A stretch of 45,434 nt of DNA, from contig CAMHDT010000004.1 in assembly GCA_946183985.1 (NCBI GenBank), forward strand, positions 1-45,434. The letters run 5' to 3'. Origin of the DNA: an uncultured Prevotella sp. Its GTDB lineage: Bacteria > Bacteroidota > Bacteroidia > Bacteroidales > Bacteroidaceae. The position numbers and the translations under genes are program-made. Of the stretch, positions 4,851-13,609 are shown piece by piece. The notes beneath the pieces were generated by a model. The model was not told the DNA's origin. It made no database searches and saw nothing but the letters and a program-made list of their open reading frames with translations. The stretch's first letter is position 1; every line of letters begins with the position of its first letter.

Positions 4851-4892
4851 TTCCTCTTCTTGTCTTTTTGTCTTCTCGTTTTCCCGTCTTCT

Positions 4893-6344
4893 TTATAGTT
4901 TCCTCAGCACGAGCAGCAGGTGATTCCACACCATTTCAACGGTGGGAATGTAAAGACGCTCGTCGGGTGTATGCACATCGCGCAAAGTGGGACCAAACGA
5001 TACCATGTCGAGGTTGGGATAGCGTTCCGAGAACAGACCGCACTCCAAGCCTGCGTGAATGCCGCGCACTACTGGCTCACGGCCAAACAGTTCCTTGTAG
5101 GCATCAACCACGGCGTCGCGCAAGTGGCTCTCTGCCTTCATCTTCCATGCAGGATATCCGTCGCTACTGTGTGCTTCGGCCCCGGCCAGTTGGAATGTGG
5201 CAACGATGGTGGCGCACATATTGTCGAGATTCGACATGACATTGGAGCGTTGCGACGAGAGGATGTTGATTTCTGTTTCTGACGAGTGGATGGCAGCAAT
5301 GTTCGACGAAGTCTCTACCATTCCGTTCAGTTCCGGGTCTTGGCAAATGGCATAGATACCATTGTCGACAGCCTGGATGGCCCACACAAAGTTTCGTGCA
5401 ACTTGGGCGTCGATCACCAATTCGCGGTCGGTGCTCTCCATGGTCCATACCATCTGCTTGTCGGTGACATGGAACTCATCTTCCACCTGTGCCGAGAAAA
5501 TGTTCCAGTCGGCCTTCACGTTCTCTTTCAGTTCATTGGGAACGGCAATGACAAACATGCCGTCGCGAGGAATGGCGTTGTGCAATTTGCCCGAGTGGAA
5601 CTGGGCCAGACGCACGCCTTCATAGCGGTTCATGGTCTGGAAGAGGAATCGTCCAAGAATCTTAATGGCGTTGGCACGCTTCTTGTTGATGTCGTCGCCA
5701 GAGTGGCCGCCGGTAAGTCCCTTTAACTGTGCACGCAGGAAGAACGCGTCGGCAGGGGCCTCCTCACGGGTGAAGGTGAACTTGGCCTGCGTATTCCGGC
5801 CACCGGCACACGACACAAATATCTCGCCCTCGTCCTCAGAATCCAGGTTGATCAGGTAGTCGCCCGTCATGAAGCCGGCCTTCATGCCTTCTGCACCAGT
5901 CAGTCCCGTCTCTTCATCGCGTGTGAAGACACATTCCAGCGGACCGTGCTCAATATCATCGGCCTCAAGGATGGCCAGTTCGATGGCGCAGCCAATGCCG
6001 TCGTCGGCACCCAGGGTTGTTCCCTTGGCTTTCAGCCATTCACCGTCGACGAATGTCTGTATGGCATCCTTGTCGAAGTCAAAGTCAATATCAACCAGTT
6101 TGTCGCACACCATGTCCATATGGCTTTGCAGAATCACCGTCTTTCTGTTCTCATAGCCTTTCGTTGCCGGTTTGCGAATCAGCACATTGCCAGTCTCATC
6201 TACAATGGTCTGCAAATGATGGCTTTCTCCCCATTCCTGGAGGTATTTAATCATCTTTTCCTCGCGCTTCGAAGGACGTGGGATTTGGTTAATCTTGGCA
6301 AACTGCTCGAATACCGAAGCAGGTTTTAGGTCACTTTTATTCAT
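4893..6344 (-). CDS. pepD: Aminoacyl-histidine dipeptidase (M20 family); start trimmed to the internal Met MNKSDLKPASVFEQF
   Basis: HMDMVC, GADDGIG and RDEETGLTGA motifs; the longer ORF start would run through the divergent promoter region. Confidence 0.92.
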   Translation of the reverse strand: MNKSDLKPASVFEQFAKINQIPRPSKREEKMIKYLQEWGESHHLQTIVDETGNVLIRKPATKGYENRKTVILQSHMDMVCDKLVDIDFDFDKDAIQTFVDGEWLKAKGTTLGADDGIGCAIELAILEADDIEHGPLECVFTRDEETGLTGAEGMKAGFMTGDYLINLDSEDEGEIFVSCAGGRNTQAKFTFTREEAPADAFFLRAQLKGLTGGHSGDDINKKRANAIKILGRFLFQTMNRYEGVRLAQFHSGKLHNAIPRDGMFVIAVPNELKENVKADWNIFSAQVEDEFHVTDKQMVWTMESTDRELVIDAQVARNFVWAIQAVDNGIYAICQDPELNGMVETSSNIAAIHSSETEINILSSQRSNVMSNLDNMCATIVATFQLAGAEAHSSDGYPAWKMKAESHLRDAVVDAYKELFGREPVVRGIHAGLECGLFSERYPNLDMVSFGPTLRDVHTPDERLYIPTVEMVWNHLLLVLRKL

Positions 6345-8658: not shown

Positions 8659-11109
8659 ATGAAACTTTCAGAACTGCACAACGGACAAAAGGGCGTCATC
8701 GTCAAGGTGATGGGTCACGGAGGCTTCCGCAAGCGTATCATCGAGATGGGCTTCGTGAAAGGGAAGACCGTAGAGGTGCTCCTCAACGCCCCCCTGCAAG
8801 ACCCCGTGAAGTATCGTATCATGGGCTATGAGGTGAGCCTGCGCCGCCAGGAGGCCGAGCAGATAGAGGTGGTGACCGGCGAAGATGCAGCCCGCCTGCC
8901 CGACAATATTGTTCTGAAAGGTCATGAAGACGATTTTTTGCAGCACCAGGCCCTGCGCGAGCGCCGTGTCATCCACGTGGCGCTGGTGGGCAACCCCAAC
9001 TGCGGCAAGACCTCGTTGTTCAACTATGCCTCAGGCGCCCATGCCCATGTAGGCAACTATAGCGGCGTGACGGTCGATGCCGCCGAGGCCCATGCCTCCA
9101 TGATGGGCTACGACTTTGTCCTCACCGACCTGCCCGGCACCTACTCCCTCTCGTGCTATTCGCCTGAAGAACTCTATGTGCGCCAGCACCTGTCGGAAAA
9201 GATGCCCGATGTGGTCATCAACGTGGTCGACGCCTCCAATCTCGAGCGCAATCTCTATCTCACCACCCAACTTGTCGACATGAACCTGCGCGTGGTCTGC
9301 GCCCTCAATATGTACGATGAGTTTGAGCGGCGAGGCGATTCCGTCAACCTCGCCACCCTTTCGTCGCTGTTCGGCATGCCCATGATACCCACCTCGTTCA
9401 AGACCGGCATGGGTGTCAAGCAACTGTTCAGCGCCGTCATCCAGGTCTACGAGGGCGCCAACAAGACGGCCCGCCACCTGCATATCAACTACGGTCACGA
9501 GATAGAGCACGGCATAGCCCATATCCAGACCTACCTGAAGGCCGACGAGCATATCCGTCAGCACTATAGCACCCGCTATCTGGCCATCAAATTGCTGGAG
9601 CACGACAGCGATGTGCTCCGCTACGTGGGCCAGCACATGGCCGACGAAGACCGTCCGCAAGACCGCAAGCGGCTGCTGCAGGCCCGCGATGCCGCCGCCA
9701 CCCGCGTGCAGGAAGAGACCGGCGTCGACAGCGAGACCGCCATCATGGATGCCAAATACGGCTTTATCAACGGCGCCCTGCGTGAATCCAAATACCGCAC
9801 GGGCACCAAGAAAGACACCTATCGCGTCACCCACGCCATCGACCGCATTATCACCAACCGTCTCATCGGCTTCCCCATCTTCCTGCTCCTGCTCTTCCTC
9901 ATGTTCGAGGCCACCTTTGCCCTGGGCGACTATCCTGCCCAGTGGATAGAAGACGCCTTCGACTGGATGGGCCAGTGGGTCACCCACACCATGCCCGAGG
10001 GGCCCCTGAAGTCGCTCATCGCCAAGGGCATCATCGGCGGCGTGGGTGCCGTCATGGTGTTCCTGCCCCAGATCCTCATCCTCTACACCTTCATCTCGTT
10101 CATGGAAGACTCCGGCTATATGGCCCGTGCCGCCTTCATCATGGACAAACTGATGCACCGCCTGGGCCTCCACGGCAAGTCGTTCATACCCATGCTCATG
10201 GGCTACGGCTGCAACGTGCCCGCCGTCATGGCCACCCGCACCATCGAGAGCCGCCGCTCGCGCATCATCACCATGCTCGTGCTGCCCTTCATGTCGTGCC
10301 AGGCCCGCCTGCCCATCTATATCACCATCGTGGGCGCCTTCTTCGCCGGTCAGGCGCGCAGCCTCGTGCTCATCTCGCTCTATGTGGCCGGCCTGCTGCT
10401 CATGTGCGTGGTCAGTTGGGTGCTCAGCCATCTCATCATGAAAGGCGAAGATACCCCCTTCGTCATGGAACTGCCGCCCTACCGTTTCCCCACCACCAAG
10501 GCCATTGTGCGCCACACCTGGGAGAAAGGTAAGCAGTATCTGAAGAAGATGGGCGGCGTCATTCTCGTGGCCTCCGTCATCGTGTGGGCTCTGAGTTATT
10601 TCCCCCACGACTATACGCTCTCCGACGACGACCCCAAGCAGCAGGAGCAGAGTTGCATGGGCCGTATGGGCAAGGCCGTAGAGCCCCTGTTCCGCGCCCA
10701 GGGCTTCAACTGGAAACTCGATGTCAGCCTCATCGCCGGCGTCGGCGCCAAAGAGATCGTGGCCTCCACCGTGGGCGTGCTCTATGCCGGCGACAGTTCG
10801 TTTGCCGACATCGAGACATTCACCGACGATGCAGACGCACCTTCCGATGGCGACGCACCCACCGAAGGCGACATCAACAGCCAGAAACTCTCCACGCTGC
10901 ACGACCTCATGGCAGCCGATGGCATCACGCCCCTCGGTGCCTACTGCTATCTGCTCTTCGTCCTCATCTATTTCCCCTGCGTGGCCACCATCATCGCCAT
11001 CAAGAACGAGACTGGCTCATGGCGCTGGGCCGCCATCGCTGCCATCTATACCACCGCCCTGGCATGGCTCATCTCCGCCGCCGTCTACCAGGTGGGAAGC
11101 CTCTTCTGA
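8659..11109 (+). CDS. feoB: Ferrous iron transporter, FeoA-FeoB fusion
   Basis: FeoA/SH3-like N-terminus; G-protein motifs GNPNCGKTSLFN and DLPGTYSL; YGCNVPA, GVGAKEIVAS in the permease. Confidence 0.96.
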   Translation: MKLSELHNGQKGVIVKVMGHGGFRKRIIEMGFVKGKTVEVLLNAPLQDPVKYRIMGYEVSLRRQEAEQIEVVTGEDAARLPDNIVLKGHEDDFLQHQALRERRVIHVALVGNPNCGKTSLFNYASGAHAHVGNYSGVTVDAAEAHASMMGYDFVLTDLPGTYSLSCYSPEELYVRQHLSEKMPDVVINVVDASNLERNLYLTTQLVDMNLRVVCALNMYDEFERRGDSVNLATLSSLFGMPMIPTSFKTGMGVKQLFSAVIQVYEGANKTARHLHINYGHEIEHGIAHIQTYLKADEHIRQHYSTRYLAIKLLEHDSDVLRYVGQHMADEDRPQDRKRLLQARDAAATRVQEETGVDSETAIMDAKYGFINGALRESKYRTGTKKDTYRVTHAIDRIITNRLIGFPIFLLLLFLMFEATFALGDYPAQWIEDAFDWMGQWVTHTMPEGPLKSLIAKGIIGGVGAVMVFLPQILILYTFISFMEDSGYMARAAFIMDKLMHRLGLHGKSFIPMLMGYGCNVPAVMATRTIESRRSRIITMLVLPFMSCQARLPIYITIVGAFFAGQARSLVLISLYVAGLLLMCVVSWVLSHLIMKGEDTPFVMELPPYRFPTTKAIVRHTWEKGKQYLKKMGGVILVASVIVWALSYFPHDYTLSDDDPKQQEQSCMGRMGKAVEPLFRAQGFNWKLDVSLIAGVGAKEIVASTVGVLYAGDSSFADIETFTDDADAPSDGDAPTEGDINSQKLSTLHDLMAADGITPLGAYCYLLFVLIYFPCVATIIAIKNETGSWRWAAIAAIYTTALAWLISAAVYQVGSLF

Positions 11110-13150: not shown

Positions 13151-13186
13151 ATTGTTTTAAGTTGTTATTATTGTTTGAATACACAT

Positions 13187-13216
13187 AAAAAACGTGGACA
13201 ATTTACTTCGTCTACG
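13187..13216 (-). terminator. Terminator-like hairpin followed by U6
   Basis: Minus strand CGTAGAC-GAAGTAAATT-GTCCACG-TTTTTT (one stem mismatch). Confidence 0.55.
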
Positions 13217-13609
13217 TTCTAGAGGTATCGCCAAACACCTTGTAATCTTAAACGAGTAAAAGCCCACGCCGTCTAGCGTGAACTCCAACTTCAGTTCTTG
13301 ATTACGTTCTATTAAATTTGGCGATTTTCTAGAACAAGAATCTAAAAGTGGATATTCTTGCGTCCTTTCTTGCGTCCCGATGGTAGCAAGCGTCACCCTT
13401 CGGGATGCCGAGCGCGGTAGCAAGCGACCAGAGGTCGAGTGCAACCTATATGTCCTTTATATCTTTCTCAGCCCATAGGCATCTGCGGTTTTAGGGTTAT
13501 ACATTTATTTATGTCTATGCCGACTCATGGGCATAGTTCTGATCACGCTTAGGAAACGACAGGCTCTTTATCTTCGGGGTCATTTCATTGTTGTCTGCCT
13601 GCAAAGATA
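13193..13609 (-). ncRNA. Candidate structured RNA or leader upstream of the BspA-like gene
   Basis: Nested complementary segments 13216-13223/13328-13335, 13227-13235/13317-13325, 13242-13247/13300-13305, inner hairpins, and TATCTTTG at 13609-13602. Confidence 0.45.

Follow-up and report, generated by a model that had tools for sequence, protein, structure and literature searches.

A pseudoknotted, multi-copy leader RNA that probably attenuates transcription of envelope-protein genes in Bacteroidota

The window considered here, a 45,434-nucleotide stretch of contig CAMHDT010000004.1 (assembly GCA_946183985.1), comes from an uncultured Prevotella sp. On its minus strand, a gene whose product matches Pfam LRR_5 (E 7.7e-42) and begins with a signal-peptide-like N-terminus is preceded by a candidate promoter box, a minigene, a REP-like insert and a compact structured RNA that ends in a U-tract (Table 1). 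Bacteroidota promoters use a box other than that of sigma-70, and a sigma-70 promoter scan of the locus yielded nothing; the TAnnTTTG box is present at 13609-13602, as an earlier, sequence-only reading of this DNA had reported. The helices listed in that reading, among them 13328-13335/13216-13223, 13317-13325/13227-13235 and 13300-13305/13242-13247, also lie exactly where it had placed them. The reverse complement of 13187-13345 is a genuine structured RNA: the minus strand from 13345 to 13187 has a minimum free energy of -53.1 kcal/mol, against -32.7 +/- 3.7 for shuffled sequences (z -5.5), and none of 200 shuffles folded as well.

Table 1. Features of the leader and its downstream gene (window coordinates).
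Feature	Position	Strand	Basis or remark
-7 promoter box, Bacteroidota type, TATCTTTG	13602..13609	-	Candidate promoter of the leader; sequence and enrichment in relatives
Minigene ATG-CCT-ATG-GGC-TGA, ATGCCTATGGGCTGA	13468..13482	-	AUG-stop conservation in relatives
Inner minigene ATGGGCTGA	13476-13468	-	Part of 13468..13482
REP-like palindromic insert in linker between minigene and RNA core	13358..13444	-	Outside the conserved RNA
Strand 1, TTCTTG	13335..13340	-	Pairing possible with strand 2 (13300-13295)
P2, 5' strand	13328..13335	-	Partner 13223-13216; covariation
Pseudoknot, 5' strand ATCGCCAAA	13317..13325	-	Partner 13235-13227; covariation
P3, 5' strand	13300..13305	-	Partner 13247-13242; covariation
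Apical hairpin P3b (end of strand 2, start of strand 3)	13260..13285	-	Covariation
Strand 3 CGTGGGCTTTTACTCGT	13252..13268	-	Partner is strand 2 (rod) or strand 4 (terminator)
P4 hairpin AGGTGTTTGGCGATACCT	13223..13240	-	Loop is 3' side of pseudoknot; covariation
P2, 3' strand	13216..13223	-	Covariation; sequence
Strand 4 ACGAAGTAAATTGTCCACG, 3' arm of long-range terminator	13193..13211	-	Covariation and folding
U-tract TTTTTT, intrinsic terminator	13187..13192	-	TTTT here in most copies (see text)
Downstream gene, secreted BspA-type LRR protein, 345 aa	12113..13150	-	Open reading frame; Pfam

The roughly 410 nt that follow the promoter box had been described as lacking a convincing gene. This holds in that the 95-aa frame 13157-13444 is not conserved: a protein-coding reading of it was rejected, the frame being free of stops in only 18 of 172 close copies. 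The description had missed the minigene at 13482-13468, and 13444-13358 proved to be the REP-like insert, which is absent from most relatives and has pieces repeated at 11 further sites of the source genome. The box is unusually distant from the RNA core, partly owing to this insert. A shorter insert of similar type occupies the same site in three related stretches (L017, L022, L163) and in the source genome's own copy on contig C22, and the linker seems to be a tolerated or preferred landing site for such elements.

Covariation was assessed in an alignment of 104 copies (A3). Across rod and pseudoknot 93.4% of cells are paired, a figure biased towards the structure because part of it had guided the alignment; two-sided changes occur in 36 of 37 pairs, which 0/500 shuffles equalled. 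The covariation score reaches 0.625, where shuffles give 0.199 and sliding the structure gives 0.076 or less. The pseudoknot, which was absent from the model used for the fitting, is 95.9% paired, with two-sided changes in 6/6 counted pairs and an APC z of 6.7-11.5 in an all-pairs scan. Among the other elements, P2 is paired in 98.9% of cells (7/7 counted pairs compensatory), P3 in 99.4% (every counted pair compensatory; APC z up to 29.9), the apical hairpin P3b, whose supported helix is GAGTTCACGC/GCGTGGGCTT (13285-13260), in 98.1% (two-sided changes in 8/9 pairs) and the P4 hairpin in 97.3% (4/4 counted pairs). In the all-pairs scan, run with no prior structure, the highest-ranking pairs are those of P2, P3, P4 and the pseudoknot. 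A 5' hairpin, AAGC-GUUA-GCUU, covaries weakly and is kept as a possible element only.

These pairings recast the fold that had been drawn from the single sequence. The 9-bp match 13317-13325/13227-13235 does pair, not as a plain helix but as a pseudoknot, its 3' side being the loop of a hairpin (13240-13223) that covaries on its own. The inner hairpin GAACT/AGTTC remains a candidate, the helix supported at the apex being that at 13285-13260. The architecture predicted from the comparison of copies is a pseudoknotted rod that competes with a long-range terminator, and the junction-type, multi-helix RNA proposed earlier is set aside. Beside the helices only about six unpaired positions are near-invariant (model positions 29, 30, 38, 41, 119 and 130); with so few, the RNA does not readily suggest a classic small-molecule aptamer, and sensing of a protein or of the ribosome is as open as sensing of a small ligand.

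The competing helix is formed by strand 3 (13268-13252), which is complementary to strand 4 (13211-13193), itself abutting the U-run. Although A3 was not fitted to this 3:4 helix, 12 of its 15 pairs show two-sided changes (85 two-sided cells versus 25.5 in shuffles; 0/500 shuffles as high), its covariation score is 0.310 against 0.208 shuffled, and three pairs belonging to the terminator (100-143, 104-139, 99-144) come out of the all-pairs scan at z 3.9-5.0. Taken alone, the long-range hairpin 13270-13193 folds at -30.9 kcal/mol (z -4.5), and TTTT stands at the terminator position in 230 of 240 copies. The proposal of a terminator ahead of the gene is thus retained; the short hairpin CGTAGAC/GTCCACG first offered for it is supported more weakly than this covarying long-range one, and may have been added locally within the Prevotella-type subfamily. 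Because strand 3 pairs with either strand 2 or strand 4, both pairings covarying and each excluding the other, the two are predicted to act as a terminator/antiterminator pair. The 1:2 pairing also shows two-sided changes (9/9 pairs; 42 cells versus 13.8 shuffled), with weaker support than 3:4. An attenuator should carry an intrinsic terminator with an antiterminator that excludes it, and the leader has both a predicted terminator with a U-tract just before the gene and a covarying, exclusive antiterminator; its predicted 1:2, 2:3 and 3:4 pairings are, formally, the logic of attenuation. The rod is computed to be far more stable than the terminator, so that the decision between them is probably kinetic or factor-dependent.

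The RNA belongs to a large family, the members of which are mutually related, so that counts of copies are not counts of independent events. By blastn, copies at about 71-97% identity occur in 63 of 150 genomes of the same genus, with 1-5 per genome, and a pattern based on the 3' hairpin matches at least 118 stretches, nearly all of them Prevotella/Bacteroidaceae MAGs and many from the rumen. A covariance search, which had been put forward with the sequence-only reading as a way to check it, extended the family across the phylum, with substitutions that preserve the helices by compensation: model R1 found copies in 176/301 genomes (23/30 genera) of the same family and in 100/295 genomes (70/185 genera) of the same order, and model R2 in 40/298 genomes of the phylum. 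The distribution is patchy, often with several copies in a genome. The source genome itself has two more copies: a diverged one 23 nt upstream of a secreted-protein gene, and another, at the end of a contig, with the pseudoknot strand TTGGGGAA in place of TCGCCAAA. On one Prevotellaceae contig (L116), three copies fall within 5 kb (456-620, minus; 1707-1876, minus; 4884-5053, plus), each before a different secreted-protein gene.

Rfam 15 gave no hit in the window at the gathering cut-off, and what appeared at E<=10 was limited to RNA families of eukaryotes and viruses, matched by chance; an Rfam scan of the relatives gave nothing beyond chance matches and one tRNA. The earlier statement that the RNA could not be assigned to a known family is upheld by these scans, and we found no description of it in the open-access literature. 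As for a phage or plasmid element, blastn searches of INPHARED and PLSDB returned zero matches. An IMG/VR contig (L164) does carry a full copy (9357-9526), close to the end of the fetched stretch, which may mark a prophage border or be misclassified host DNA.

Across Bacteroidota the RNA precedes hundreds of genes, mostly for cell-surface products, and usually keeps one position relative to them. Where enough sequence was available, the next gene is co-oriented in 196 of 201 copies, at a median distance of about 50 nt, compared with 146/208 upstream neighbours and 355/522 (68%) background gene pairs on the same strand; in some copies no gene follows closely. TAnnTTTG boxes lie upstream of the RNA in 92 of 166 window-like (Prevotella-type) copies (17.3 in shuffles) and show no excess between terminator and gene (5/187 versus 9.9 in shuffles). 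With boxes enriched before the RNA and not between RNA and gene, the gene probably needs readthrough. Downstream proteins are signal-peptide-like by a crude test in 160 of 195 cases (about 82%), as against 188 of 592 other proteins (32%). In the downstream Pfam tally (n=128), BspA-type LRRs lead with 34, followed by SusC-type plug domains (6) and dockerins (5), and the remaining families account for one to three each, overlapping repeat models aside.

Copies of the Flavobacteria type lie 200-370 nt before the next gene, often a SusC-like one, and this gap leaves room for another promoter; six such copies (L255, L258, L260, L261, L263, L266) lie 200-270 nt upstream of genes for SusC-like TonB-dependent receptors, which suggests a link to uptake loci in other orders. 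Four diverged copies (L036, L207, L213, L228) are followed by a gene whose small product (about 70-80 aa; MVHIGKLIEEKL...) is HTH-like; the one from L207, the sole one searched, had no Pfam match. In two further stretches (L024, L040) the second gene downstream, after a BspA-type gene, encodes a conserved excisionase/HTH-like protein (MKAIRKCKYCGKEFVARSGMQKFCCEEC...), which may be part of a shared cassette.

We consider it likely, with a probability of about 0.76, that the BspA-like LRR gene has this RNA as its 5' leader and that the RNA acts in cis as a transcription attenuator, as a member of a large undescribed family of envelope-gene leaders in Bacteroidota. RNA polymerase would initiate upstream and first produce the 5' half, in which strands 1 and 2 lie together with the 5' sides of P2, P3 and the pseudoknot. 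Strand 3, on emerging, would pair with strand 2 to give the apical hairpin and P3; P4 would then form, its loop would pair with the 5' pseudoknot strand, and P2 would close, which completes a long rod. Timely locking of rod and pseudoknot would make strand 3 unavailable, strand 4 would stay single and polymerase would read into the gene; if strand 2 were held by strand 1, or no pseudoknot formed, strands 3 and 4 would pair immediately ahead of the U-run, giving a stop and a short RNA. Since it is this locking that would decide readthrough, the domain of pseudoknot, P2 and P4 is the likely sensor, and a factor stabilizing it would switch the gene ON. Any trigger might be a metabolite or second messenger, a protein, or translation by way of the minigene.

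The last of these raises the question of whether the attenuator reports translation. In this special case of the leader reading, the choice between rod and terminator would fall to a ribosome on the minigene, or that ribosome would protect the leader, and the leader would so report initiation, termination or antibiotic stress. Among window-like copies having the motif yCTATG, 124 of 127 have an AUG and then, 0-3 sense codons later, a stop; the AUG lies mostly within CCTATG, 30-49 nt before the core (56 and 60 nt in two copies), the stops TGA, TAA and TAG interchange and the sense codon varies (GGC, ACA, AGC, AGA, ATA, GTA). Minigenes with at most one sense codon occur in 131 of 167 window-like copies versus 37.5 in shuffles, and under a coarse, rough clustering they are present in 12 of 13 clusters. 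Two-codon minigenes do act in cis in bacterial leaders (PMC8708949). Outside the window-like subfamily, however, the excess is weak (13/36 versus 6.8; 11/31 versus 6.0), Flavobacteria-type promoter boxes often stand about 30 nt before the core and leave little room for a minigene, and strand 1 would be out of reach of a ribosome sitting on the minigene, 30-49 nt ahead of the core. We regard translation sensing as not very likely, and the minigene looks like an accessory input rather than the core of the switch. A hairpin around it, CCTATG/CATATAGG, is not claimed, the partner motif being present in only 83 of 134 copies.

A free-standing structured sRNA, with the downstream gene incidental, was the other option left by the sequence-only reading. 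It would account for a compact conserved RNA with a promoter before it and a terminator after it, for the few copies that have no near downstream gene, and would have a precedent in the multi-copy sRNA families of Bacteroides (FopS, PMC11697453). Against it stand the tight spacing and nearly constant co-orientation of the next gene, with no promoter box between, and the strong enrichment of exported proteins downstream; in addition, strand 4 repeats the pairing capacity of strand 2, a property that fits a switch better than a fixed sRNA. A leader of riboswitch or attenuator type is thus favoured, and an independent sRNA seems rather improbable. We give still less credence to a processive antitermination element or an elongation-factor-recruiting RNA of the EAR/put kind: the long rod, few invariant unpaired bases and diverse downstream genes would fit, but the terminator that excludes the rod follows it immediately, and the element would act on its own terminator only. 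A mobile REP/MITE-like repeat spreading near genes, for which one might cite the multiple copies per genome, their patchy distribution and the REP-like insert in this very leader, is hardly credible given that the downstream gene lies at a fixed distance and in a fixed orientation, and given the upstream promoter and the extensive compensatory change among copies.

In the gut and rumen Bacteroidota are dominant; they adapt through changes of their surface, and few cis-acting RNA switches are, to our knowledge, known in them. A multi-copy attenuator family before exported proteins would constitute a shared regulatory layer for surface remodelling. The family also supplies loci in which ligands and factors can be sought, and it opens the part played by two-codon minigenes in transcription attenuation to direct testing. 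More tentatively, and with considerable doubt on our part, we suggest a new, phylum-wide class of signal-sensing leaders that would set the transcription of genes for secreted and surface proteins (BspA LRRs, lipoproteins, SusC-type transporters); these would probably be riboswitches for a second messenger or an envelope-state signal, to which the minigene would add an input from ribosome availability in Prevotella-type lineages.

Among known systems, c-di-GMP GEMM leaders stand before diverse surface genes. With transcription-terminating riboswitches and orphan candidates generally, the leader RNA shares its 5' position, a pseudoknotted domain, the mutually exclusive antiterminator and intrinsic terminator, and the many loci per genome; unlike the riboswitch classes, it lacks an Rfam match, covaries in nearly all of its helices and pseudoknot, has few invariant unpaired bases and carries an upstream minigene in one subfamily. 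A riboswitch would be expected to bind a small ligand directly in its aptamer, through a pocket of invariant unpaired nucleotides; the likeness here is one of predicted working, to riboswitch and attenuator leaders alike. The amino-acid attenuators of trp and his have the same four strands, the 1:2, 2:3 and 3:4 pairings and a short upstream ORF (found here in one subfamily), but in those leader peptides the regulatory codons overlap strand 1, whereas here the ORF has 0-3 variable sense codons, none fixed as regulatory, 30-49 nt before a structure that includes a large pseudoknotted domain.

FopS is an RNA of about 65-70 nt with a single-stranded 5' seed (R1) and a terminator hairpin, and acts in trans (PMC11697453). 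Common to FopS/GibS and the RNA described here are multiple copies in Bacteroidaceae, a sigmaABfr promoter, a terminator and a connection to the envelope and SusC (PMC11697453), while the leader RNA is about 170 nt long, highly structured and predicted to act in cis; structure and length both separate it from FopS/GibS, and it has no Rfam match although FopS is stated as deposited in Rfam. The axe-txe minigene mg2, finally, acts on the translation of a gene 15 nt away (PMC8708949); it shares with the leader an AUG-codon-stop minigene upstream of a regulated gene, which in the leader family stands about 35 nt before a predicted transcription-terminator switch and is kept in more than 100 loci.
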